33,568 bases of DNA, taken from IMG/VR virus record IMGVR_UViG_3300013014_000081, positions 1-33,568 of that record; one strand, written 5' to 3'. The notes under the pieces are model-generated. The model was not told the DNA's origin and made no database searches. It saw only the letters and a list, made by a program, of their open reading frames with translations. Below, piece after piece: positions 1 through 33,568 of this stretch (position 1 is the stretch's first letter; each line of letters starts with the position of its first letter). This DNA is from a virus. The position numbers were made by a program, and so were the translations under genes.

Positions 1-123
1 CATAATTTTAGCTTGTTCCTTGCCCAAATGCGCCCCAGCGTGGCGGTCGGTCGTAAATGAGCAATCCATGCCGTGGATGTTGAACCGCCGGTAGCCAAGC
101 GCCGCCATGACGTTCATCGCCCG
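1..123. repeat. Terminal direct repeat, left copy
   Basis: These 123 bases are repeated exactly at the right end of the window (33446-33568). The repeat lies inside the coding region of a DUF115 gene, and joining the ends restores one uninterrupted reading frame. That is the mark of a circular contig whose ends overlap, from either a circularly permuted or a circular genome. A true packaged terminal repeat is possible but usually lies outside essential coding frames. Confidence 0.95.
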
Positions 124-579
124 CTGCCCGACCGAACTGCCGCCGCCAATCATGCTGTTTGCGCCCTCGGGGTGATTTTGCATCACCCATGCCACGGTTT
201 CTAGGTCATCGCCGTTGATCAGATGCCACAACCGCACTTGGCGGCCCTTCAGCACTTCCCAATATTTCGGATGGCAGACGGTTGCCATCAGGTAGATGGT
301 TTTGGCCTGCGGGTTTTGTAGCATCCGCGCCTTGTGTTCCCTTGGGTCGCAATCCACATGGAAATCCGGCACGATTCCGCGCCTGACAAGATAGTCATGT
401 GCGCCTGACACCGTGACAATGGGTCGCTTTATCAGCTTCCAAGTGTCGGCAAGGCTTGGGCCATAGCAGACAATGGATGCCCATTTGTCGTTAAATTTGG
501 GCCTTTTTTTGAGCATTTGCCCATGTGCCTGCGACATTTGGGCATGGCGCTCATTGTTGCTTAGGACACCTTGTAGCAT
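1..579 (-). CDS. DUF115 (Maf/MptE-like) protein, N-terminal part, cut by window start
   Basis: This is the first 193 codons of a gene that continues at 33445 and stops at 33290; across the circle it gives 244 residues. DUF115 is the domain of Maf-type flagellin glycosylation factors and is related to MptE-like 6-hydroxymethylpterin pyrophosphokinases. The frame shows the family pattern: a nucleotide-fold strand with CYGPSLADTW, then VSGAHDYLVRRGIVPDF, the acidic DCDPREH motif, a CHPKYW strand and a MIGGGSSVGQRA helix start. The same blocks occur in the N-terminal half of the protein at 1001-2641. I chose the ATG at 579, which overlaps the methyltransferase stop by 19 nt and has AGGG upstream; ATGs at 537 and 516 are alternatives with no better ribosome site. 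The role in the phage is unknown; glycan transfer or nucleotide-sugar chemistry is inferred. Confidence 0.8.
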   Translation of the reverse strand, partial: MLQGVLSNNERHAQMSQAHGQMLKKRPKFNDKWASIVCYGPSLADTWKLIKRPIVTVSGAHDYLVRRGIVPDFHVDCDPREHKARMLQNPQAKTIYLMATVCHPKYWEVLKGRQVRLWHLINGDDLETVAWVMQNHPEGANSMIGGGSSVGQRAMNVMAALGYRRFNIHGMDCSFTTDRHAGAHLGKEQAKIM

Positions 580-1163
580 TCAACCCTCATATCTCGGAAT
601 GGAAAGTGATAGCGCGGGTCAAAGAATTCGATGCGTTCCATGCCTACCGATTGCAGCATTTGGCGCAACGGGGATTCAAACCAACCCCACCGGTGGCACA
701 TGGCAGAGTCTTTGTATTTAGGGTCGCCCCACAGCGCATAGGTGGTCATGAACGGCTGCAATGACTGCTTATGCACCACGCAATTGTGGATGTAGGCAAA
801 CACCTTGTCCATGCACGGCAATTCAAGAATCATCTTGCCGCCTGGCTTGAGGACGCGCATCCACTCAGACAGCAAGGCGTGTACTTCCCATTCGTAGAAA
901 TGCTCCAGCACATGAATGGCGGCGACCGCATCGGCTGAGTTGCTGGCAAGTTCCAGCTTCCGCAAGTCGCATTTGATGTCCGATGTTTCGGAATAAAGGT
1001 CTACGTTGACCCAACCGTTCCAATGCTTTTTTCCGCATCCGAGGTTGTAGGCCGTTTCGTAATCGTCTTCCATGCATCGATCACTGTTTGCGGCCCATAT
1101 TTTTCCATCACGAATTGTTGCGCCGCCAAGATATTGTTCGACAAGTTCCGCTTTATTGTCCAT
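561..1163 (-). CDS. SAM-dependent methyltransferase
   Basis: A 200-residue class I methyltransferase. The SAM-binding motif I is NLGCGKKHWNGWVNVD at residues 40-55, followed by the acidic strand DLRKLELASNSADAV, the motif HVLEHFYEW near 84-92 and the post-motif LKPGGK at 105-110. This layout is the Methyltransf_11 type, common in sugar and small-molecule modification clusters. The start at 1163 has AGAGGG six bases upstream; a longer frame to 1244 lacks such a site. The first 54 codons overlap the end of the upstream DUF115-glycosyltransferase gene in another frame, and the stop overlaps the start of the second DUF115 gene. It sits inside a glycan-type module, so O-methylation of a sugar is the simplest guess, but the substrate cannot be read from the sequence. 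Confidence 0.85.
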   Translation of the reverse strand: MDNKAELVEQYLGGATIRDGKIWAANSDRCMEDDYETAYNLGCGKKHWNGWVNVDLYSETSDIKCDLRKLELASNSADAVAAIHVLEHFYEWEVHALLSEWMRVLKPGGKMILELPCMDKVFAYIHNCVVHKQSLQPFMTTYALWGDPKYKDSAMCHRWGWFESPLRQMLQSVGMERIEFFDPRYHFPFRDMRVECYKVS

Positions 1164-2641
1164 TCGATGCCCTCTTTGATGTTGCCAATCCAAATGCCAG
1201 GAAAGCCCTCCAATGCTGGATGCGGCTCTGCGACTACAAAACAACCCTGACGGGTTGCCTCAATTGCCCGATTTGGGCTTTTGTAGGTATCGGTGGCGGG
1301 TATCACCACAATGTCAGCGCGGGCAAATTCTTCCAACATGGTTTCATGCGACCAAGGGATTGCCCCGCCAAAGTTAGACACCACCCGCAGCGGGTAATGC
1401 TCAATTTCCGGCAGGATGCGCCGTAGGCTTTCTTTGTTAACGGCGTGTCCATACCACAGCAAATTAACGCCGTTGCAGTGCGGCGGCATCTCATCGTACT
1501 CAAACGGGTCAGGAATGACCACGGCATCTTTGCCCAATGCCTTGATGCGCTTTGCCATTTCTTGGGTCGGGCAAGTCACCACATCGGCAATCCGCAGCGC
1601 CTCGGTATAGTGCATCCAATCAAAATGGTCATCGCAAAAGTCCACAATGACCCGTGCACCACGCGCCTTTGCTTGCGCCATGTCCATCAATTCTTTTGCT
1701 TGCGGCTTGGCAAACACCAATGTGCCCGCCGTGAAGTCATTGAGGGTTGCCCAATCTCCTGCCGGTATCTTGGCCCTGTAGCGCCAGCTTGCCGACCAAT
1801 GATCACCAAAGTGAATGAACGAAACCCGATCATTTTGCTGCGCTTGGGTGTTGATGAGGTCGCCCAATGTCATCATGTTTTCTTCCCTTTTGCGGATGAT
1901 GGCTTGAATCAGGCCATGCCCGTGACCATTGAATACCGCATCCGGTAGGTAATCGTAATAGGTTTGGAAATGCTCGGCTTGCAGCGCCATTGCCGTGTTG
2001 CAGTGAAACGTCTCGCCATCAGGGTCAATCCTTACCTCAATCAGCTTATCGCCGTCCTTGAGTCCATCGCCGTTAACCCGCAGCTTGTCGCCGGTGTTGC
2101 AAGAATCAAACCCAAACAGTTCAAATTGGCGGTATCCAAGGACGTAGAACAGCGAAATGGCGCGTAGGCCGGAGGTAGTGCCACCGCCAATCAGCATGAC
2201 GTTTGTGGGGCGATTTTGGCCCTTGGTGATGTATGGATGCCAAATGGTGACATCGCAGCCTTCAAGGTTGTCAAACATCGCCGGATGGCATTGTGATGCA
2301 ATCATGTAGCGCACAGCCTTGTGGGGCTTGTAGAACGCGATCCGATGCTCTTGTGGGTCGATTGCTAATGCGTAATCAGGAAACACGCCGTTGTCAATTA
2401 GCCAATCGTGTGCGCCCTTAATGGCAACAACCGGCGCACCGGTTGCTTGCATTTTCTTGATGAGTTCTAGTTGCCCTGTGACACTTGGGGCGCTTGCCAC
2501 CAACAAGATCGGGCCAGCGTGTGCGTGTTGATTGTGAACAACCTGTGGATAACCTCGCGCTATCGCAGCATCCATGTGCGCGAACAGCGTGTTGTCATCC
2601 GCAACACATTGACCAGTGACTTTGAGGGGTAGAAAACTCAT
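1001..2641 (-). CDS. DUF115 - glycosyltransferase fusion protein
   Basis: A 546-residue two-domain protein. Residues 43-180 are DUF115-like: GPILLVASAPSV, IKGAHDWLIDNGVFPDY, IDPQEHR and MLIGGGTTSGLRA, parallel to the smaller DUF115 protein next door. Residues 270-525 look like a GT-B glycosyltransferase: an IADVVTCPT strand, a mid-domain LLWYGH strand that begins the second Rossmann fold, then the donor-binding region SPNRAIEATRQGCFVVAEP at 455-473 and a terminal EKYGPQTVIDAW helix typical of GT4-type enzymes. It probably transfers a sugar to a virion or host-surface acceptor; DUF115 in bacteria acts on flagellin. The start codon lies directly behind the U-tract of a terminator hairpin and has no Shine-Dalgarno. 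Expression may depend on read-through or a hidden promoter. Confidence 0.8.
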   Translation of the reverse strand: MSFLPLKVTGQCVADDNTLFAHMDAAIARGYPQVVHNQHAHAGPILLVASAPSVTGQLELIKKMQATGAPVVAIKGAHDWLIDNGVFPDYALAIDPQEHRIAFYKPHKAVRYMIASQCHPAMFDNLEGCDVTIWHPYITKGQNRPTNVMLIGGGTTSGLRAISLFYVLGYRQFELFGFDSCNTGDKLRVNGDGLKDGDKLIEVRIDPDGETFHCNTAMALQAEHFQTYYDYLPDAVFNGHGHGLIQAIIRKREENMMTLGDLINTQAQQNDRVSFIHFGDHWSASWRYRAKIPAGDWATLNDFTAGTLVFAKPQAKELMDMAQAKARGARVIVDFCDDHFDWMHYTEALRIADVVTCPTQEMAKRIKALGKDAVVIPDPFEYDEMPPHCNGVNLLWYGHAVNKESLRRILPEIEHYPLRVVSNFGGAIPWSHETMLEEFARADIVVIPATDTYKSPNRAIEATRQGCFVVAEPHPALEGFPGIWIGNIKEGIEWTIKRNLSNNILAAQQFVMEKYGPQTVIDAWKTITKRPTTSDAEKSIGTVGST

Positions 2642-2668
2642 TAAGAAAACCCCGCTTCTTTAGCGGGG
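2641..2668 (-). terminator. Rho-independent terminator or attenuator after the capsid genes
   Basis: Read on the minus strand, CCCCGCT and AGCGGGG form a perfect 7-bp GC-rich stem around the 5-nt loop AAAGA, followed by TTTTCTT. It lies 9 bases after the stop codon of the decoration-type gene (2678), and its T-tract runs into the ATG of the DUF115-glycosyltransferase gene (2641). It would end or attenuate leftward late transcription after the head genes. All downstream genes to 18952 continue in the same direction, so partial read-through is likely. Confidence 0.88.
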
Positions 2669-2677
2669 AATCCGGTT

Positions 2678-3211
2678 TTAGCCTGCTCCGACCATGATCA
2701 AGCCAGCATTGTTGACCATGCAGAATGGTGCAGATGCTGACGTTGCCGAGGTGTTAGCCACAATACCTTGGATGAAACCGGCAGACACGGTAGTGTCGTC
2801 CAGCGATCCAGCGGTAGCTGTGGTGTACAAAGGCACTTTAGGCTGGCAAGCAACCAGCAAGTTCACCTTGAGCAAACCGTTTAGACCAACCCAGCCGTAG
2901 TAGCTGGAGGCAATTGCGGTTTGTGCAAAGCCAACCATGTTAAAACCCAGCGCAGCGGCATTGGTGGTGGTCACGGGCACAGCACGCATAACGGGAGTGG
3001 TACTCGCCGAGTCTGCATAACTGGACATGATCACAGCATCAAATGCGTTGATGGTGGATTCGGCGCGGACAAAAATATACACGCCGTTGTTGGAAGTGCC
3101 GACCCGAGTGCCAGGGGTAACGGGGAACAGGGTAGTGGAACCGGCAGACGTGGACGCATAAGTTGCGGTTAGGTCAATACCAATTTTTCCATCGGTGACG
3201 TAATCAGGCAT
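2678..3211 (-). CDS. Putative capsid decoration/cement protein
   Basis: A 177-residue protein directly downstream of the major capsid gene, 10 nt apart, with a good ribosome site (AAGGAG, 7 nt before ATG). The composition is rich in Ala, Ser, Thr, Val and Gly with alternating hydrophobic stretches such as VGLNGLLKVNLLV, as expected of a beta-rich virion surface protein. No catalytic motif is visible. Position after the coat gene and before the terminator suggests a highly expressed structural protein, most likely a DUF2190-like cement or decoration protein. The family assignment is inference from context and composition. Confidence 0.6.
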   Translation of the reverse strand: MPDYVTDGKIGIDLTATYASTSAGSTTLFPVTPGTRVGTSNNGVYIFVRAESTINAFDAVIMSSYADSASTTPVMRAVPVTTTNAAALGFNMVGFAQTAIASSYYGWVGLNGLLKVNLLVACQPKVPLYTTATAGSLDDTTVSAGFIQGIVANTSATSASAPFCMVNNAGLIMVGAG

Positions 3212-3221
3212 GATTTTCTCC

Positions 3222-4202
3222 TTATTCAGTCATTACGCCTTGGAACTGGAGTCCCGAGGCAGTCATATTGCCAGCCCATCCAATCAGGCGCACGATGGCA
3301 TCCTGGTTGGTACTCATGCGCTCATCGCCAATTGGGACGAAGTTGCGATTGGTGTGTGGTCGGAAGAAAATGTACTTGCTATTCAAGAAATAGCCAGTTG
3401 AGGTGGGGATATTGCCACCAATACCACCGTCCAACACCACATCAGCGTTCATGTACTTCGATGCAACAAAGCCGAGTTCAGCCATCTTGCTAGAGCCAGG
3501 GAAACGCTGGATGTTTTGCAGGGAAGACATGAAGAATCCCCACAGGTTGTTGTCCAACAGAATCAAGTCAACCACATCGCTACCACGCGAGGTCTTTGCA
3601 TACAGGCGGTTGAAACCGGTCTGAATGTTAGACGACGATGCAGATGCGCCAAGGTCGGTTGAGAAGTCAAACGTCTGATTGCGCCAAAAAGACCATGTGC
3701 TGCGATCAATACCGCCGACCACGCCGGTTGCCGGATTAGCGACCACCATAGCTTGCAGACCAGTGATCTGCTTGCCGTTGTTGGCTGTGCCGTCCGAATA
3801 GATACCGGTCGAGATCAAGTTCTCAATCGATGCCTCGGCAACGTCCAAACGTGCGTCAAACAAATCGATGATTTGTTCTTCGCCGCTGTTTTGGAGCATT
3901 TCCAAGCCATTGATGGTCACTGCAACAGCGGCCTGCTTGATGGGGAACTGAGCCGCGCTGATAACGTCCGCAGGGCTGATGTCCAAGACTTCAGCGCCTG
4001 AGTAGTACATTGCGGTACTGTTGGCTTGGAAAGACAATTCTTGCAGAATCGTGCTACCGCCGGTGAACGGCTTGTACCGTCCTTTTTCACGCAGACGGGT
4101 CAGCAAAGCATTGTTTTTGGTCACGTTGTCGGCGACTGTGCCGGAACGCGATTCAATGGTCGTTGCCAAAACGTCTGAGTAGTTTGCATTTGCGTATGCC
4201 AT
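3222..4202 (-). CDS. Major capsid protein
   Basis: A 326-residue coat protein, expected to form the icosahedral shell. It starts with a helical N-arm (ANANYSDVLATTIESRS, KNNALLTRLREKG) followed by the E-loop-like strand GGSTILQELSF, a spine-helix region with GEEQIIDLFDARLDVAEASI, and a C-terminal strand with NRNFVPIGDERM and a hydrophobic WAGNMTASGLQF end. This order matches HK97-fold coat proteins of environmental podoviruses. A strong ribosome site (AGGAG) precedes the ATG. It lies between the scaffold-like gene upstream and the decoration-like gene downstream, the usual order portal, scaffold, coat. The exact coat family cannot be fixed without a profile search. Confidence 0.88.
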   Translation of the reverse strand: MAYANANYSDVLATTIESRSGTVADNVTKNNALLTRLREKGRYKPFTGGSTILQELSFQANSTAMYYSGAEVLDISPADVISAAQFPIKQAAVAVTINGLEMLQNSGEEQIIDLFDARLDVAEASIENLISTGIYSDGTANNGKQITGLQAMVVANPATGVVGGIDRSTWSFWRNQTFDFSTDLGASASSSNIQTGFNRLYAKTSRGSDVVDLILLDNNLWGFFMSSLQNIQRFPGSSKMAELGFVASKYMNADVVLDGGIGGNIPTSTGYFLNSKYIFFRPHTNRNFVPIGDERMSTNQDAIVRLIGWAGNMTASGLQFQGVMTE

Positions 4203-10982: not shown

Positions 10983-11660
10983 TTAATCGTTTGAGTCTTT
11001 CATGTTGATTAACCCATTGAGCATTCGGCTCTTGGTGTTCATCCACGGTTTACTGTAATCACAATTTGCGTAATGGTCAAATTCGGGAATGCCTAGCGTG
11101 TAGTGGGCAATTTTTGTTCGCAAATGATCGTGTTCACCTACCAGCACGTTCCATTCCCTTGGCAATTCGCCAATGAGTGAGTCGGGCAGCCATTGGAATC
11201 GGTGCAGTTCCTCGCCTGTGGATTCCTCAATGAATTCGGGTGTCAGCACCTTGTTGCGGCTATGTTCACAGTTCCACAGCACCACGCTTGACCAGTTTTT
11301 CCTTGGATAGTCGCCATTACGGGCTTCCATCGGTGTGCCAATGTACTTCCTTGGGTGCTTGGTCTGATAGTCATGCTTAACCACCTGGACGGCATAGCGC
11401 GGGTCAAACAGGCTTTCTAGGTCTTCAATGTCTGCCAACATGAGCATATCTGAGCCATCCAAAAAGATAGCCTTGCCTTGGTATCCGCACAAAAATGGTA
11501 CTAAAAACCGTTGGTAAGTGAATGCGTTTGTGCCGTCTCGCTGCTTGCCCGACAAGGGCGTGATGCTGACTAGCCCCTTGGTACGCTCTATGACCGATTG
11601 GCAGAATACATGGTAGCCCACGGCTTCCCGAGGGTCGTATCCTGCAAATATGCGAATCAT
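10983..11660 (-). CDS. GT-A type glycosyltransferase (GT8-like)
   Basis: A 225-residue enzyme beginning with the strand MIRIFAGYDPREAVGYHVF. The metal- and nucleotide-sugar-binding DxxD-type motif is in IFLDGSDMLM (D68, D71), followed by the acceptor-side blocks RKNWSSVVLWNC and a late H/G motif (IAHYTLGIPEF). This resembles GT8-family and other phage nucleotide-sugar transferases. It overlaps DUF5856 by 4 nt and precedes the terminase genes by 24 nt, so it belongs to the late transcript behind the structured leader. The acceptor is unknown; together with the DUF115/GT module it suggests the phage glycosylates virion proteins or host glycans. Confidence 0.8.
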   Translation of the reverse strand: MIRIFAGYDPREAVGYHVFCQSVIERTKGLVSITPLSGKQRDGTNAFTYQRFLVPFLCGYQGKAIFLDGSDMLMLADIEDLESLFDPRYAVQVVKHDYQTKHPRKYIGTPMEARNGDYPRKNWSSVVLWNCEHSRNKVLTPEFIEESTGEELHRFQWLPDSLIGELPREWNVLVGEHDHLRTKIAHYTLGIPEFDHYANCDYSKPWMNTKSRMLNGLINMKDSND

Positions 11661-12708: not shown

Positions 12709-12982
12709 CGACAAAAGCGCGAAATTTCACGCCCTGTTGTGTGCCAAAGGCTGTGGATAACTCTATCAGTTCGGTCATTTCCGGCACGGTCATCTTGCTG
12801 GTACGCGCACCAATTACGACAAAGCCGCCTTCAATGCCAGGCACTACCTTTTGTTTTTTCAGCGCGGCGGTCAAAACATCTTTCCATTCATCTTTTGTCA
12901 GCTTAACACCGTACCACGTTACTTGTTGGGCAATGTCTTCAAGATTTGCCCACATCATGCGGTTTTGGTTAAGGCTTCTCAT
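12701..12982 (-). CDS. ninB: NinB-like recombination protein
   Basis: A 93-residue protein matching the NinB/Orf family: the opening RSLNQNRMMWANLEDIAQQV, then WYGVKLTKDEWKDVLTAALK, GFVVIGARTSKMTVPEM and the C-terminal ELSTAFGTQQGVKFRAF. Lambda Orf binds ssDNA and SSB and acts as a recombination mediator in place of RecFOR. The gene overlaps its neighbours in the replication-recombination chain. The length is shorter than lambda NinB but typical for phage relatives. Confidence 0.88.
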   Translation of the reverse strand: MRSLNQNRMMWANLEDIAQQVTWYGVKLTKDEWKDVLTAALKKQKVVPGIEGGFVVIGARTSKMTVPEMTELIELSTAFGTQQGVKFRAFVDD

Positions 12983-13719
12983 TTGTAGTCTTGTTCAGCC
13001 ATGTGGCAAAAAATTGAACACTCTATGTTTTGTTCTGTAGGGTAATCACCGGCATCAAGCGGCAATTTGTCTAAGTAAACCCGTTCTCCCTTTGATTTGG
13101 TAATGCTTGCGCCGATGTTGCGCTCCAGCTTTGCCATACGGTCAAAATGCTCGGGAAAATCCACGCGAATCTTGTTCCAATAGCCAGCACCGCCTTTCAC
13201 ACAACCAATACAGTTGTTGTTGTGATAACCCAAGCGGTACATCTTGGGAAGTTCAATGTTGGCGTTCTCCAGCATTGCCAAGCAATCTTCTTTTGACAGA
13301 CCTTTGTCGATTAATGGTGTCCAAATGTCCACATCATTGTTGGCATCAATAAATCGATCTAAACGGTGCTGCTCTTCTGCCGTGTAACCAAAAACTTGTC
13401 TATCAGTTGGTTGCTCAAACTTTAAGCGCACTTCTTTTTTTAAGAATTTGGTACATGGTGCGCCAGCAATCCCGACAATGTAGCGGTTTTTTTCAAATAC
13501 GTTGTAAATGCTGCCACCATATTTTTCATTACGCAAAATTTGTATTTTTTGCCCAAACCATTCTTCGCAATCAGTTAAAAACCGCCGATTGTCGGGGTGT
13601 TCTTCTGCAACTTCGGTGTAAGCAATCACCAAAGGCAATTTGCCATTGTTTTCAGCAATAGCCAATTTTGTAGCAACCGCGCTTGCCGCACCACAGCTAA
13701 ACCAACAAACAATTCTCAT
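12979..13719 (-). CDS. PAPS-reductase-like PP-loop ATPase
   Basis: A 246-residue protein of the phosphoadenosine phosphosulfate reductase fold. It begins MRIVCWFSCGAASAVATK, where SCGAASA replaces the SGGKDS-type PP-loop, followed by YTEVAEEHPDNRRFL and a metal-cysteine region NNCIGCVKGGAGYW. Such phage proteins are widespread and their substrate is unknown; relatives take part in sulfur transfer to nucleic acids (DndC) or assimilatory sulfate reduction. The PP-loop is degenerate, so it may not reduce PAPS. It overlaps the VRR-NUC gene (ATGA), so nucleic-acid modification is a reasonable but unproven reading. Confidence 0.82.
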   Translation of the reverse strand: MRIVCWFSCGAASAVATKLAIAENNGKLPLVIAYTEVAEEHPDNRRFLTDCEEWFGQKIQILRNEKYGGSIYNVFEKNRYIVGIAGAPCTKFLKKEVRLKFEQPTDRQVFGYTAEEQHRLDRFIDANNDVDIWTPLIDKGLSKEDCLAMLENANIELPKMYRLGYHNNNCIGCVKGGAGYWNKIRVDFPEHFDRMAKLERNIGASITKSKGERVYLDKLPLDAGDYPTEQNIECSIFCHMAEQDYK

Positions 13720-18326: not shown

Positions 18327-18955
18327 GTTACATTGTTGCGGCGTTGCCGCCATTAAAATGTTTTGTGCGGCGTGAGTTTTTGCACAATTTCACTAAAGGC
18401 CATGGCGAACTGGAGCCAGCAATTTGGATCAGCATCAAAGCCTTGCGTGGACAAGTGTTTCGGATTGAATCGCTGCTGCCCGCATACGGCGCGTTGTACG
18501 ACAAGCTGCCCATCCACGCCTATGTGTGGAAAGAAGACCACGGCGATTTGCCCATTGACTTCTTGCAGCTATGGGATTGCATGGGCTACCGTTTCACGGT
18601 TGTGGAAAAGATTGCCTTGCGTAATTTAGGCGTGAAATTTCTTGGCAAAGACAAGCAATGGCATCACGGCACATATCTTTTCACTGTGGATTTTTGCGCT
18701 GACGGGCAAGACTTGGACACCGGCTTTACTGAACAGGCAGAAGAACACAAATCGTTTAATTTCATGCGCCTTGAAAACGGGCAATTTGCTTGTCAGCCAA
18801 ACAACCGGTGTCTGTGGTATGACCAAAGCCTTGTGCCCACAGAAACAAAGTTTCCTGACTTCCAAGCCGCACAGACTTTTTGGACGGTCGATGGAACACG
18901 CAAGTGGTCAGCAGGCGACGATTGGTTTTACGACATCAAAGAAAAAACAAATTAA
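18323..18955 (+). CDS. Conserved phage protein of unknown function
   Basis: A 210-residue soluble protein, last of the rightward genes, with AAGGA before the ATG. Blocks KCFVRREFLHNFTKGHGELE, LPAYGALYDKLPIHAYVW, FLQLWDCMGYRFTV and GTYLFTVDFCADGQ resemble, from memory, a hypothetical protein common in marine and freshwater phages that has no assigned role. It contains no catalytic motif I can name. Its stop overlaps the endolysin stop on the other strand by 4 nt (TTAA). As the terminal early gene it may be dispensable or moron-like. Confidence 0.75.
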   Translation: MSYIVAALPPLKCFVRREFLHNFTKGHGELEPAIWISIKALRGQVFRIESLLPAYGALYDKLPIHAYVWKEDHGDLPIDFLQLWDCMGYRFTVVEKIALRNLGVKFLGKDKQWHHGTYLFTVDFCADGQDLDTGFTEQAEEHKSFNFMRLENGQFACQPNNRCLWYDQSLVPTETKFPDFQAAQTFWTVDGTRKWSAGDDWFYDIKEKTN

Positions 18956-19476
18956 GCCAGCATGGAATCCGCGCTTGATTTAACGTGATCAACTCGGGCC
19001 AGCCAGCCTTTGAGAAACTTCTGCTGGCTCGGGTTGTTGATTGCAAGACCTTTGTAAAAGCCTTGCTTTTGTTCAGCAAAATTAGCAAGTAGCCTTTGCT
19101 TATTAGTGACGGCAACCTTGCCCAATGTGCCGCTGCCAATTACGCCGTCATCCACAGCCCCTACAGCCCGCTGAAGAAACTTTGCGGCGCGGCTGACCCC
19201 TGCATTTACCGCAAAATCAAAAACGGTGTAATCAACCGCTAGAGGCAGATCGTCGCCCTTTACCTTGTCCCAATACATGGCGCGGTAAAACGACTTGACG
19301 GTTTCCTTTGTCAGTGCCTTCATCTCGCCTGGCTTAATTTCACGCCCAAGATATGCGCCCCATGCGCCAATCGTCACTCCAAGATTTGTTTCGCCACCAC
19401 GGTCTGCCGGGTCGTTGACATAGCCGCCTTCAGCCTTAATCACGCGCTCAAACGATGCATCAAAGTTTTCTTTCAT
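18952..19476 (-). CDS. Endolysin, glycoside hydrolase 108-type muramidase
   Basis: A 174-residue endolysin. The N-terminal block SFERVIKAEGGYVNDPADRG with GGETNLGVTIGAW is the active-site region of GH108 N-acetylmuramidases, with the catalytic Glu16 in KAEGGY. The second domain (FAVNAGVSRAAKFLQRAVGA, GVIGSGTLGKV) is the PG_binding_3 type normally joined to it. It cleaves host peptidoglycan at lysis. It has no signal peptide, so it needs the holin-type genes just upstream (transcriptionally). It is the last gene of the leftward transcript and overlaps the convergent gene's stop. Confidence 0.93.
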   Translation of the reverse strand: MKENFDASFERVIKAEGGYVNDPADRGGETNLGVTIGAWGAYLGREIKPGEMKALTKETVKSFYRAMYWDKVKGDDLPLAVDYTVFDFAVNAGVSRAAKFLQRAVGAVDDGVIGSGTLGKVAVTNKQRLLANFAEQKQGFYKGLAINNPSQQKFLKGWLARVDHVKSSADSMLA

Positions 19477-28485: not shown

Positions 28486-29391
28486 TTATACGCCAAACAT
28501 TTTGGGCAATGCATATTTAGCGCCTACAGCACCTAGGCTGTACAACCCCGAGGTGTTTGCGTTTTGCGCTGCCACTTGCTGGTTGTAAAGATTTTGCTCA
28601 TATTGACCTTTCGCTTGCGTAGCTGCAAAAGTAGGCGCAGGAGCAATATTAGAACCTGAGTAGGCTTGAAATTGCGGATTTTGAATTTGACTTCCGGAAA
28701 TCAATGCAGTGATTTCATTCAACGGCATTTGACGACCTTGGATGGCTTGTGCCAATGCTTGCTGCTGTGCAGTGTTTTCAAATTGTCCAGCTTGCAGGGC
28801 TTGGTTGTACATTTGTGCGTTTGCGCTTGTGTCCAAATTAATGCCTTGCAATGCCGCTTGTGTGCGGGCATCGTTCTCCTGTTGTCCCAATAGCTGAATG
28901 GCGTTGTCGTAAGCCTCAGTTCCAGGCCGCAATCCTTGGTTTATAAGTTGGGTTTCGGTGCTAACGCGATTCTTTGCCAATGACGGCTCTAGGCGCGACA
29001 TGATGGCTTCTTGGCCCGTTGTTCCGGCATTGACCGGCATTTTGGCAATGTTGCTTAAATCCAGCGAAGTTTTAACATTTGGCCCACCAAAATCAAAAGG
29101 CTTGTCAAGAACAGTGCTTGCAATTTCAGCGCCTTTTCCGCTAAGTGATGCAAGCTGATATTGGGTTTTTTGCTGTTCTTCTAATGTCTTTTGAGCCTGT
29201 GGGGTTAGCGTTTGCGTGATGGTTGGCTGGTCGCCGTCATAGGACACCAATTGCGTTCCATATGGAGTGTATGTGTTGGGATTGTTCAACTTAGATTGAA
29301 CACGCGCCGTTTCAATGTTTTCAATGCCTTGCTGCTTTGCAGCACCTACATAATCAGGCGCTGCGGGTGCTGCTGGTGTACTTTTTCCCAT
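28486..29391 (-). CDS. Putative internal virion/ejection protein, Ala/Gln-rich
   Basis: A 301-residue protein starting MGKSTPAAPAAPDYVGAAKQ with QGIENIETARVQSKLNNPN, a start often seen in environmental podovirus internal proteins. It has a long Gln/Ala-rich helical middle (LEEQQKTQYQLASLSGKGAE, TAQQQALAQAIQGRQMPLNE) and a C-terminus with SGLYSLGAVGAKYALPKMFG, possibly membrane-active. It lies first of the internal-protein genes after the hub and acetyltransferase, where P22 gp7 would lie. Function is inferred. Confidence 0.72.
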   Translation of the reverse strand: MGKSTPAAPAAPDYVGAAKQQGIENIETARVQSKLNNPNTYTPYGTQLVSYDGDQPTITQTLTPQAQKTLEEQQKTQYQLASLSGKGAEIASTVLDKPFDFGGPNVKTSLDLSNIAKMPVNAGTTGQEAIMSRLEPSLAKNRVSTETQLINQGLRPGTEAYDNAIQLLGQQENDARTQAALQGINLDTSANAQMYNQALQAGQFENTAQQQALAQAIQGRQMPLNEITALISGSQIQNPQFQAYSGSNIAPAPTFAATQAKGQYEQNLYNQQVAAQNANTSGLYSLGAVGAKYALPKMFGV

Positions 29392-29797
29392 ATCTGATCT
29401 CCAAATATTTGCATCGTTCCTTTGGCATGGTGAAAATTACCATATCCCCGTCTGCCATTGCATTCTTGATCCGCGCTTCCTCTTGGAAACCCATTTTTTC
29501 AACAAATTTGATGCTTGTGATGTTTGCGCTGCTGACCGGCACAATAATCTTGCCGACATTACAAACATTGAACGGGTAGTCAAAGATGGCTGCTAAGTAG
29601 GCCGGAGTCATTCTGCCGGTGACCGCAATGTGGCAAGTGATTGACTTGCCATGCCAGTTTTCGTAGATGACACCGGCGACAAACTCGCCGTCTTTCTTCA
29701 ACCCGATAGACTTGCTGCGATCTTGAAAGTAGCCACCATCGACCTTTTTTGCAGTCCAATGTCCTGCTGAATGGTCTGAAGTGATCTCAAAGAACAC
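29354..29797 (-). CDS. GNAT-type N-acetyltransferase
   Basis: A 147-residue protein. The acetyl-CoA region lies near residues 70-125: MTPAYLAAIFDYPFNVCNVG, KIIVPVSSANITSIKFVEK (strand then helix after N), MGFQEEARIKNAM. The N-terminal FFEITSDHSAGHW is seen in many phage GNATs. A GTG at 29797 with GAGG six bases upstream is the preferred start; TTG at 29809 and GTG at 29800 are alternatives. It overlaps the hub gene by 11 nt and the next gene by 38 nt. It may modify a virion or host protein; the substrate is unknown. Confidence 0.75.
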   Translation of the reverse strand: MFFEITSDHSAGHWTAKKVDGGYFQDRSKSIGLKKDGEFVAGVIYENWHGKSITCHIAVTGRMTPAYLAAIFDYPFNVCNVGKIIVPVSSANITSIKFVEKMGFQEEARIKNAMADGDMVIFTMPKERCKYLEIRYGKKYTSSTRSA

Positions 29798-31334
29798 CAC
29801 CAGCCTCAAACACCAAGTCGGTTGCGACCCATTGCAATTCTATACCCTGCGTAGCAGTGTTCAACGTGGGAGCAAAAGAATATCCGATGCCGGTTGTGCC
29901 TTGCCAATCGGCAATAGGACTAAGCCCGCCGCCCCAATAGGCAATATCCCACAATCCGCTGTCCCAAACGCCATATTGTTGAGCCGAAAAATTTAGCTGG
30001 GCGCTTTGGTCGGAAAGGTCGTAATCAACGTTTACATTGCCAAAAATTGCCGGTGAACCGTTACTCAACAAGTGATAGCGGATCATCTTGCATTGCTTTT
30101 GGGTTGCCGACCCGTAGTTTTGAAAACTCTGCAAAGCAAAACCGTTGATGTTGGACGTGTCATCCACAGTCCCATTCCAAGCCAGCGCGACATAGCCATT
30201 GCCGCCAAAATAGGGGTCATCTTGATAAATTTCCCAACAAGTAGCAAGCCAACCAGTAAAGTTGCACCAGCTTTTAGTGATGGTGTTCATCACATATTGT
30301 TGCTCTTGCCCCGTTGCAATCGGGACATTCATGATCAGTTGGTTTTCCTTGGGATAGTAGAGCAAACTCCACCCAAAGTTCTGCCCATACAAGCTGACCG
30401 CTTGGCTGACCGCATATTGGATTTTGTTGGTAATCGACACCCGAGGGTCAAGGCGGGACGATTGCAAAGCGCCGGACATGGGAACCACGCCGTCTTGGGT
30501 GATGATTAGCAAATCGCCGCCGTACTTAATCCAGCAGCGCCGCCCAATAGGTGCGCCAACCTTCCACAAACCGGTCATAGCAATGCCGCTTGGCGTTGTT
30601 GGGTCAGTCAGTCGCCAAACCATTACCTCGCCATTGCTGGTGATGAAAACAAGGTAATCGTCCATGCCGTAGCCAGCATCCAGCGTCCAAGTCATAGCCG
30701 CCATGATGTAGCCGCCAAACTGGAAAAGGCTAGTCATGTCTAGCGCAATTGCAGCGCCGCCAATGCTGTTTGTGGCTAAATACCACGCCTTCAAAGACCC
30801 GTTTTCCACTAACCACACGCGATTCTTAAACAGCGTGATGTTGGAACAATTGGCGGTATTCACGCCGGTGATGTTGTAGGGCGATCCATCGCCATCTTTA
30901 TGCCAAGCAGAACCATCATATGTTCGCAGCTTGTCCTGACCATTGACCGCCATCAAATAAGATGCGGCAGGGGTTGTGATGTTGACATACTGAAACTTGG
31001 CATTGGATAGGCCAGTGACATCCGCAGCGCCCACCGCGCCAGGCGAGGTTACATCGTAAATTGAATCTATTGCCGCAGCAAAAAGCTGATTAGATGTGCC
31101 GGAACTGTAGGCAAGAATGGTTTGAACCGTGCCGGTGATGCCGATGGCGTGTTTGGTATAGCCGTTCCGCAAAATGACCGAGTTTGTGCCAGGCCAAAAG
31201 TTTGTCAGCGTGACCGCATCTAGCGGCTCCATTGCACCCAATGCATCGCGGGCATTCCAGCCGCCAATAGGCGCGGCTACAGATACCGTTTGGCTACGTT
31301 GGGTTGATGGCGCTCTGCCAAATGATGCAAGCAT
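29787..31334 (-). CDS. Tail hub protein, P22 gp10-like
   Basis: A 515-residue beta-propeller-like protein: GGWNARDALGAMEPLDAVTL with NFWPGTNSVILRNGYTKHAI at residues 28-66, then WLVENGSLKAWYL, DDYLVFITSNGEVMVWRL, YGGDLLIITQDGVVPMSGAL and FGWSLLYYPKENQLIMNVP. The opening NAxxPL-A..L.N..P. pattern is that of gp10/tail hub proteins that lie under the portal-adaptor stack in short-tailed phages. It precedes the internal-protein genes, as in P22. It overlaps its neighbours (TAATG at the start; the acetyltransferase at the end). Confidence 0.82.
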   Translation of the reverse strand: MLASFGRAPSTQRSQTVSVAAPIGGWNARDALGAMEPLDAVTLTNFWPGTNSVILRNGYTKHAIGITGTVQTILAYSSGTSNQLFAAAIDSIYDVTSPGAVGAADVTGLSNAKFQYVNITTPAASYLMAVNGQDKLRTYDGSAWHKDGDGSPYNITGVNTANCSNITLFKNRVWLVENGSLKAWYLATNSIGGAAIALDMTSLFQFGGYIMAAMTWTLDAGYGMDDYLVFITSNGEVMVWRLTDPTTPSGIAMTGLWKVGAPIGRRCWIKYGGDLLIITQDGVVPMSGALQSSRLDPRVSITNKIQYAVSQAVSLYGQNFGWSLLYYPKENQLIMNVPIATGQEQQYVMNTITKSWCNFTGWLATCWEIYQDDPYFGGNGYVALAWNGTVDDTSNINGFALQSFQNYGSATQKQCKMIRYHLLSNGSPAIFGNVNVDYDLSDQSAQLNFSAQQYGVWDSGLWDIAYWGGGLSPIADWQGTTGIGYSFAPTLNTATQGIELQWVATDLVFEAGGVL

Positions 31335-31784: not shown

Positions 31785-32702
31785 CTATTGTGCGGGCCAA
31801 TTCCCGTCTTGAACACTCCAAGGGCCGACCAGCGGATTCATGCCAATCGGGGCAAGAGACTGCGCCGGTACAGGCACATCTTGCGCTTTTGTGTAACTCA
31901 ATGCCCGTGTAAATTCGCCCAATTCAATGGCGTAATCCAGCTTTTTAGCCTTGAGAAAATAAAACTTCAAACCCGCCAGCATGAGGTCATCGGGGAAAAC
32001 CGCCGTGTCGCTGTCAACGCTATATGCGCCTTTGTCGCCTGCCGTTGCGCCGCTAGACATCACCCAATAATTGCTGACGTACTCAAATGCAAAAGTGTAG
32101 ATGCTTGTCAGGGCTTGAAAAATCCGCAGGCGGTTGTTGTATATGCGGTAGCGTTCCCGTGGGCCAACAGAAATGATGCCGCCTTGCAGCCATTGCCATT
32201 CTTGGCTGGTTTTTGTTCCAAGGTTGCGCCAATGGTTTGTGCGATCCCAATTTGTATCCGAGATCATGCGGTCAAAGTCGGTCGGCATTGCATAGTCTTG
32301 CTTGGCAAACGTCATCGAAACCGCCGCCGTAGAAGTTGCAACCGGCGTGTTTAGCGTGACTTGAGTTCCCGAGTCAATGGTCAGAATTTCAGCGTATGGA
32401 GCCTGCCCTGTGCCAGTGACCACATTGCCCACTTCCAAGCCTACGGTTGTTCCCATGCTGGTGATGACCTTTGACCCTGCCGTGATTGTGCCGGTGGTGC
32501 TGATTCCAGCGGTTGTTTGCAAGACATAAGCCTTGACCAGCCGCTGCCATTCGTATTCGCGCACCAAGTCTTTGCCCAACCGCTGCGCCAAGGCCAACAG
32601 TTGGACGGTTTGGTTGTTGGTGGAGCCAATTACTGCCGCTGGTTGGGACAAGCCCAGTTCGCCCGAAACTTGGTCAACCAGTTGCAGTAATGTGTATGCC
32701 AT
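31785..32702 (-). CDS. Head-tail adaptor (P22 gp4-like)
   Basis: A 305-residue protein. It starts with a helix AYTLLQLVDQVSGELGL and LALAQRLGKDLVREYEWQ typical of gp4/T7 gp11-type adaptors. A beta insert follows (residues 65-125). Then come DYAMPTDFDRMISDTNW, GPRERYRIYNNRLRIFQALT and FAFEYVSNYWVM, and the helical end VFPDDLMLAGLKFYFLKAKK. The FP.D...l.a.l...k..k end is common in adaptors that ring the portal. It stands between a helix-rich accessory gene and the small basic genes upstream of the hub. Confidence 0.75.
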   Translation of the reverse strand: MAYTLLQLVDQVSGELGLSQPAAVIGSTNNQTVQLLALAQRLGKDLVREYEWQRLVKAYVLQTTAGISTTGTITAGSKVITSMGTTVGLEVGNVVTGTGQAPYAEILTIDSGTQVTLNTPVATSTAAVSMTFAKQDYAMPTDFDRMISDTNWDRTNHWRNLGTKTSQEWQWLQGGIISVGPRERYRIYNNRLRIFQALTSIYTFAFEYVSNYWVMSSGATAGDKGAYSVDSDTAVFPDDLMLAGLKFYFLKAKKLDYAIELGEFTRALSYTKAQDVPVPAQSLAPIGMNPLVGPWSVQDGNWPAQ

Positions 32703-33293
32703 TTATTCCACCACTTCTTCTTTGCGAGGTCTACCAACCTTTTTGGCTGTCAATTCCGTAATCATGGCACGAAGTTCAGCCATTTCAACCTCTTGGGCCT
32801 TCAATTTTTCATCAGTCTCAGCGCGGATTTTGTCCATCATTTGGCTATCTTGCGCCGCACCAATGAATGCTTGCGCCTTAGCCCGCAATTCGTTGAACCC
32901 CATGATTTTGTTGCCTGCGGAGTCCGGCAGCTTGGCAAACTGGTCAATTGTGAAGATGTTGAGCGCCCGAAATTCAGCCTTTTGCGTGTCGCTGATTGCT
33001 GCCCATGCTTCAATCGGAGTGCCATCGGATTTTTGCTCTTTCTTCTGCTCAAACCGCGCCCACTCAATTGGGAATTCTTCCTTGTCGGTTTCGCGCATTG
33101 GGCGGTCAACCACCAGCGTGGAATCGCCTGGAACCAGCTTCTTCAAGTAGATGCGTTCCTCAAAGATTGGGCGCTTTTCCAAGTCCGATTTGTAGTTATT
33201 CTTGATTTGCACAGCATGGAAAAACACCGCCATCTTGCCTCGGTTGTCCTCCATGAAACTTTCATTTGTCCATCCAGCCGTTTCGTTCTTCAT
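32703..33293 (-). CDS. Unknown conserved virion-region protein, coiled-coil end
   Basis: A 196-residue protein. The first half has strands GKMAVFFHAVQIKNNYKSDL and RPIFEERIYLKKLVPGDST with a PMRETDKEEFPIEWARFEQ block. Then comes a helical segment IEAWAAISDTQKAEFRALNI, and the last 50 residues are a charged coiled coil (EKLKAQEVEMAELRAMITEL) ending KKVGRPRKE. It overlaps the second DUF115 gene by 4 nt and lies beside the adaptor gene. Function unknown; a neck or packaging accessory is possible. Confidence 0.7.
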   Translation of the reverse strand: MKNETAGWTNESFMEDNRGKMAVFFHAVQIKNNYKSDLEKRPIFEERIYLKKLVPGDSTLVVDRPMRETDKEEFPIEWARFEQKKEQKSDGTPIEAWAAISDTQKAEFRALNIFTIDQFAKLPDSAGNKIMGFNELRAKAQAFIGAAQDSQMMDKIRAETDEKLKAQEVEMAELRAMITELTAKKVGRPRKEEVVE

Positions 33294-33568
33294 GCCATTT
33301 CCTTTAGTTGAAGTGCCGTTTCTTGCATAAGCCCGTCACCGAAAAATGCGATCTCCGCATCCTGAGTTGTGATGAATTGTTCCATCTCAATCGCTGCCTG
33401 TAGCATTTGCCTAGTGGTCTGAAATACTCGGTTTCCAGCTTTCACCATAATTTTAGCTTGTTCCTTGCCCAAATGCGCCCCAGCGTGGCGGTCGGTCGTA
33501 AATGAGCAATCCATGCCGTGGATGTTGAACCGCCGGTAGCCAAGCGCCGCCATGACGTTCATCGCCCG
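33290..33568 (-). CDS. DUF115 (Maf/MptE-like) protein, C-terminal part, cut by window end
   Basis: This is the end of the DUF115 gene whose start lies at 579. It holds the family's FNIHGMDCSF strand-loop and a helix VFQTTRQMLQAAIEMEQF, and stops at 33290 overlapping the next start (ATGA). The bases 33446-33568 repeat 1-123; after removing one copy the frame is continuous, giving 244 residues in total. Only the window's cut separates the two parts. Confidence 0.8.
   Translation of the reverse strand, partial: RAMNVMAALGYRRFNIHGMDCSFTTDRHAGAHLGKEQAKIMVKAGNRVFQTTRQMLQAAIEMEQFITTQDAEIAFFGDGLMQETALQLKEMA
33446..33568. repeat. Terminal direct repeat, right copy
   Basis: Exact copy of positions 1-123. 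It gives the circular overlap of the contig and should be counted once. It lies inside the second DUF115 gene. Confidence 0.95.

Follow-up and report, generated by a model that had tools for sequence, protein, structure and literature searches.

A conserved island of DUF115, glycosyltransferase and methyltransferase genes in the structural operon of an uncultured phage clade, with a possible role in virion glycosylation

The IMG/VR virus record IMGVR_UViG_3300013014_000081, analysed here as one window of 33,568 bases (the whole stretch of DNA), carries in its structural operon an island of three minus-strand genes encoding two proteins of the DUF115 (MptE-like) family, a glycosyltransferase (GT) domain and a methyltransferase. 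The first gene, DUF_A-GT (1001..2641), encodes a 546-aa fusion of a DUF115/Maf-like domain (residues ~15-251) with a GT-B domain (~269-534). The second (561..1163) has its start codon within DUF_A-GT and encodes a 200-aa class I S-adenosylmethionine-dependent methyltransferase. The third, DUF_B, encodes a stand-alone DUF115/Maf-like protein of 244 aa, of which the first 193 codons lie at 579..1 and the C-terminal part at 33568..33290; the latter was assigned from the reading frame and from an exact 123-bp terminal repeat (1-123 and 33446-33568), through which it overlaps 1-123. Given this repeat, the most fitting reading of the window is a circularly permuted genome that is complete, DUF_B spanning the circular junction. 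In the relative L007, DUF_B is uninterrupted (244 aa) and is followed by an Mx8p50-like gene and then by neck genes.

On the circular map the gene order is terminase, portal, scaffold, major capsid, second capsid protein, DUF115/GT, methyltransferase, DUF115, p50-like and neck, which bears out the position between coat and neck genes given in an earlier note made from the sequence alone. The flanking genes are also on the minus strand. The major capsid protein (3222..4202; phrog_9953 major head protein, E 6e-106) is 50% identical to the major head protein of Myxococcus phage Mx8, and by sequence the capsid is assigned to the family of that phage. The second capsid protein (2678..3211; decoration-type; phrog_29386 virion structural protein, E 4e-5) is the positional counterpart of Mx8p49. 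A terminator-like hairpin with a GC-rich stem and T-rich tail (2650..2668, minus strand) separates the second capsid protein gene from DUF_A-GT. Beyond the island, the start of the Mx8p50-like gene (32703..33293) overlaps the DUF_B stop, and the neck/adaptor gene follows (31785..32702; PF24175 SU10_adaptor, E 2e-5, 25.6 bits, below the cut-off of 27).

Both DUF115 regions match PF01973 in Pfam, at E 2e-16 in DUF_A-GT (residues 42-184) and E 6e-19 in the 1-579 part of DUF_B, with scores (60.7 and 68.9 bits) above the curated cut-off of 34.6, and they are approximately 30% identical to one another. The predicted structure of the L007 copy of DUF_B (pLDDT 84, pTM 0.84) aligned with the central domain of the Magnetospirillum Maf protein 5mu5 at Z 19.8 over 217 residues, with the archaeal 6-hydroxymethylpterin diphosphokinase (MptE/HPPK) 8sd5 at Z 14.0 and with the sialyltransferase CstII at Z 9.6; sialyltransferases scored Z 9-10 against the predicted DUF115 structures. 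Likewise, the N-terminal domain of the DUF_A-GT model (AlphaFold2; pLDDT 86.7, pTM 0.77; residues 15-251) aligned with 5mu5 at Z 20.1 over 219 residues. A profile built from phage and bacterial DUF115 sequences retrieved 5mu5 at E 2e-10 and archaeal HPPK at E 6e-8. On these predicted folds and profiles, Maf is clearly the top match, ahead of HPPK. The earlier note had suggested a structural comparison with Maf proteins and had named structures unlike Maf/MptE as a refuting outcome; the predicted folds are of the Maf/MptE kind and do not refute it.

The phage proteins share with Maf the central-domain fold (Z ~20), the GPS loop and the C-terminal G-x-D motif (compared with 5mu5, PF01973 and PseD). 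However, the Maf of M. magneticum has a three-domain architecture, as described in PMC11339370, whereas the phage proteins lack the Maf N- and C-terminal domains: DUF_B is a single domain of 244 aa, and in DUF_A the central domain is fused to GT-B instead. They also score far below the cut-off for the NCBIfam flagellin modification protein PseD (22.7 and 19.4 bits against 670) and stand outside any flagellar context. With the outer Maf domains missing, the statement in the earlier note that such proteins glycosylate flagellin with nonulosonic acids goes too far if applied strictly to this phage.

The GT part of DUF_A-GT gave weak matches by sequence search and a clear GT-B domain in the predicted structure. 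Residues 269-534 matched GT4-type enzymes (BshA, SenB, PimA and Gtf3/GtfC) at Z 19-22, with BshA, SenB and PimA at Z 21-22; the BshA match (Z 22.1, 259 aligned, residues 270-534) shows the two-Rossmann fold. The phage domain has the same fold as these enzymes but differs in being only ~10% identical and fused to DUF115, and in carrying KSxNRxxE rather than a clear E-x7-E pair. The KSxNRxxE motif, including E461, is invariant in the GT domain and occurs also in a bacterial relative (L235). No glutamate stands eight positions upstream of E461, and L235 shows this pattern too. A further enzyme of GT-A type, which the earlier note had placed at 10983, is recovered upstream of terS (10983..11660, minus strand): it matches PF01501 (GT8) at E 2.6e-4 and 21.1 bits, just below the cut-off of 24.3, and phrog_28018 at E 5e-35. 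This GT8-like enzyme is likely the fourth member of the kit.

The methyltransferase matches PF08241 (Methyltransf_11) at E 7e-11 and 43 bits, against a cut-off of 21.2. Motif I (NLGCG) and the NVD of the motif II region are invariant in 14 relatives, and the protein is exactly 200 aa long across 68 distinct relatives. Its top NCBIfam match, which is sub-threshold, is the mycofactocin oligosaccharide methyltransferase MftM (E 2e-7), and PADLOC returned weak partial methyltransferase matches only. Among the PHROG families, phrog_2111, whose function is unassigned, also matched weakly. None of the four enzymes contains a membrane-helix-like hydrophobic segment. No sugar-nucleotide synthesis gene was seen among the larger open reading frames scanned with Pfam, in agreement with the earlier note.

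The conservation of the island was examined with two kinds of bait. Searches with the island proteins, which select the sample on the island itself, found the gene order unchanged at virtually every locus. Searches with the capsid protein are free of this selection. Of the loci of the clade whose sequence extends more than 1.2 kb past the capsid gene, 64 of 64 had DUF_A-GT, and the order coat, second capsid protein, DUF115/GT, methyltransferase, DUF115 and neck held in these 64. Furthermore, the GT-A gene and both DUF115 regions were found in all 30 near-complete relatives, a set assembled from island or capsid hits in which some records are split at contig ends. In the searches run, capsid identity was at least 95% inside the clade and at most 64% outside it. 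At 90 loci whose capsid homologues are more distant (28-64% identity; 10 loci from an annotated phage collection and 80 from metagenomes), the profiles of DUF_A, the methyltransferase and DUF_B gave no match; some of these loci are short after the capsid gene. In the island-free relatives a p50-like gene follows the capsid region with no DUF115 or methyltransferase gene between, and inspection by eye of this interval in nine of them revealed structural or fibre-like frames and no recognisable glycan enzyme. The island is a fixed feature of one clade, sited between the second capsid protein and p50-like genes, and the clade is a common, widely sampled group of uncultured phages, probably from fresh water. 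The presence of these genes in close relatives also runs against the second refuting condition of the earlier note, which included their absence there. From the distribution of the relatives, the impression is that the hosts may be freshwater Gram-negative bacteria.

Sequence divergence within the clade indicates that the island proteins are maintained by purifying selection, since the median non-synonymous distance (dN) of the three genes is 0.16-0.22 while the proportion of synonymous differences (pS), at 0.62-0.74, is near saturation. The same order in informative relatives, together with non-synonymous change well below synonymous change, places the pattern beyond chance. For the major and second capsid proteins the median dN is ~0.05 and for the portal 0.11, so that the capsid pair is much more conserved than either the portal or the island. 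The methyltransferase gene overlaps DUF_A-GT by 163 nt here and by 157 or 163 nt in all relatives checked, and the methyltransferase/DUF_B overlap is 19 nt in relatives; the genes are therefore read as one transcript. The longer overlap (1001-1163) is unusually long for a conserved one. The hairpin just before the DUF_A start is likewise retained across 35 distinct intergenic sequences in which the stem sequences vary. In a tree of DUF115 domains DUF_A forms a single clade, and the split between DUF_A and DUF_B either predates the radiation of the phage clade or reflects two acquisitions; the Maf branches are far too long for the tree to place the phage copies relative to bacterial ones. In one relative (L221:9626-10456) DUF_B has a C-terminal extension into the next gene (277 instead of 244 aa), probably through a local frame or stop change.

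In bacteria, the DUF_B profile matched three genomes among 398 from the phylum to which the GT-domain relative belongs. One match lies within a long Maf-like protein (732-aa frame); another Maf-like protein, close to a Gfo/Idh-type gene, came from a separate search at class level. The remaining matches are stand-alone DUF115 proteins that have the phage subtype and come from two genomes (L387 and L389) within a single order. In L389, the protein overlaps the start of a gene combining tetratricopeptide repeats (TPR) with a GT41 domain (E 2e-149), and the next protein downstream starts as a methyltransferase and also carries TPR repeats and GT41. O-GlcNAc transferases make up family GT41, known members of which glycosylate proteins. 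The L389 cluster resembles the phage island in its DUF115 subtype (29-32% identity), its glycosyltransferases and a methyltransferase with the same motif, but it has TPR-repeat GT41 enzymes where the phage has the GT-B fusion and GT-A. As an observation in its own right, L389:3416-11999 (DUF115, double GT41-TPR and methyltransferase-TPR-GT41) is a candidate protein glycosylation locus, and a long Ser/Thr/Pro-rich repeat frame beside it (L389:867-3212) is either real or an opposite-strand shadow. In L387, the DUF115 protein belongs to a lipopolysaccharide-type cluster, where it is flanked by heptosyltransferase and O-antigen-ligase-like genes and a UDP-GlcNAc 2-epimerase gene is close by. A scan of the genome collection with DUF_A gave a single relative of the GT domain (L235); it is betaproteobacterial and has MsbA-, GT4- and heptosyltransferase-type genes beside it in a locus of surface-glycan type. 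Neighbourhoods of this kind favour a role in glycan modification, with either a protein or a surface polysaccharide as acceptor.

Among viruses, a tblastn search of 50,697 phage records gave no match for DUF_A-GT, DUF_B or a bacterial relative, and a more divergent DUF_B used as bait revealed no new viral clade. With the GT domain alone as query, matches were only weak and partial and fell in large phages, in genes of glycosyltransferase type or hypothetical ones. A viral structure search (BFVD) turned up proteins with the DUF115 fold in uncultured Caudovirales phages; several carry the annotation MptE-like, and one is annotated as a methyltransferase-domain protein. The best matches (A0A6J5L5C1, A0A6J5PVH5 and A0A6J7X5Q0; template modelling score 0.77-0.84, 20-26% identity) share the fold but are longer proteins of 540-714 aa. 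Phage DUF115 proteins are thus already annotated in databases, and the island would be another version of phage-encoded glycan modification; no published study of phage DUF115 proteins was found in the literature searched, which excluded subscription papers.

Mycobacteriophages Che8, Rita and Maravista likewise encode glycosyltransferases thought to decorate virion proteins, and glycans are reported on mycobacteriophage major capsid proteins (PMC11256854, citing Freeman 2023). The present phage shares with phage virion-glycosylation systems the location of soluble glycosyltransferase genes in or next to the structural operon. Its kit, known here from its genes, comprises a DUF115 pair, a GT-B fusion, GT-A and a methyltransferase, from which the capsid-glycosylation enzymes of mycobacteriophages presumably differ.

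The island is considered best explained, with a probability of roughly one in two, by enzymes that glycosylate a virion protein in the cytoplasm, drawing on a host nucleotide sugar, and cap the glycan with a methyl group. The earlier note had proposed that a methylated sugar might be built and attached to virion proteins, might mask the host surface or might modify a nucleotide. The Maf-likeness, the soluble enzymes, the operon site and the lack of sugar synthesis genes favour a built and attached sugar, and on anatomical and comparative grounds the virion is the most likely destination; for the nucleotide option, no base-modification gene was seen among the scanned reading frames. In the proposed mechanism, the DUF115 proteins would transfer a sugar from a host nucleotide sugar to the acceptor. 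CMP-Kdo is made by Gram-negative bacteria, and the donor in such a host would perhaps be CMP-Kdo or another CMP-ulosonate; a Maf enzyme is reported to accept Kdo as donor (PMC11339370). The acceptor would most likely be a serine or threonine (Ser/Thr) of a virion protein, for which the major and second capsid proteins are candidates. The GT-B domain and the GT-A enzyme would then lengthen the glycan, and the methyltransferase would cap it. The enzymes would be produced late, from the structural operon, by read-through of the hairpin, which may act as a partial terminator and would keep enzyme amounts below those of the coat proteins.

Several points weigh against this explanation. The Ser/Thr content of the second capsid protein (20-25%) does not single it out as the acceptor, as the range overlaps that of island-free phages (12-25%). 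HPPK too has the DUF115 fold, and the kit is so far a set of genes and predicted folds. A bacterial relative of the DUF115 proteins (L387) and the closest one of the GT domain (L235) lie in lipopolysaccharide or O-antigen-type loci, and the acceptor could accordingly be a surface glycan. The main rival follows from these loci, which commonly hold GT-B and methyltransferase enzymes: in the course of infection the kit may alter a glycan of the host surface (lipopolysaccharide core, O-antigen or capsule), either masking receptors to block superinfection or keeping progeny from adsorbing to debris. This is a tentative alternative, since the island has no membrane protein, flippase or GtrAB-like partner, no integrase was seen among the scanned reading frames, and a structural-operon site with tight overlaps is less expected of an early-acting shield.

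That the DUF115 proteins are pyrophosphokinases of the MptE/HPPK type, or that the set makes a modified nucleotide or cofactor instead of a glycoconjugate, is weakly supported and unlikely. The phage proteins share a Pfam family and fold with the archaeal enzyme, T4 alpha-glucosyltransferase is among the structural matches of the GT-B domain, and a PAPS-reductase-like protein is encoded at 12979-13719 (Pfam match sub-threshold). However, the match to HPPK is weaker than that to Maf, two glycosyltransferases and a methyltransferase accompany the DUF115 proteins, and the scanned reading frames revealed neither a pterin pathway nor a hydroxymethylase or other base-modification gene. Modification of a host protein such as flagellin or pilin during infection is improbable. 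In its favour, flagellin is the target of Maf enzymes and PseD gave a sub-threshold match; against it, the Maf regions beyond the central domain are missing, the phage has no flagellar link and the structural-operon site points to a virion target.

The single-domain DUF115 proteins might form a separate class of minimal protein O-glycosyltransferases, found in phages and in bacterial DUF115-GT-methyltransferase clusters, and the clade might use its DUF115 pair with a host CMP-ulosonate (e.g., CMP-Kdo) to build a methyl-capped capsid glycan; this broader proposal is speculative. Reports of glycosylated phage capsids come from only a few systems, and most of what is known of Maf-type enzymes concerns flagellin; the conserved, compact kit offers testable genes for how and why phages decorate their virions. 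It also offers a candidate minimal protein glycosyltransferase for glycoengineering, and a likely function would follow for those DUF115 proteins of uncultured phages that carry a pterin kinase annotation.

Two further genes of the genome were noted. A GNAT acetyltransferase gene in the structural operon (29354-29809) weakly matches PseH, a protein of the pseudaminic acid pathway, in NCBIfam (E 0.005); it need not belong to the kit, because several relatives that lack the island (Mx8 and BUCT555 among them) also have a GNAT annotated at the equivalent place. A glycosyl hydrolase 108 lysozyme with a peptidoglycan-binding domain (18952-19476) is the likely endolysin.

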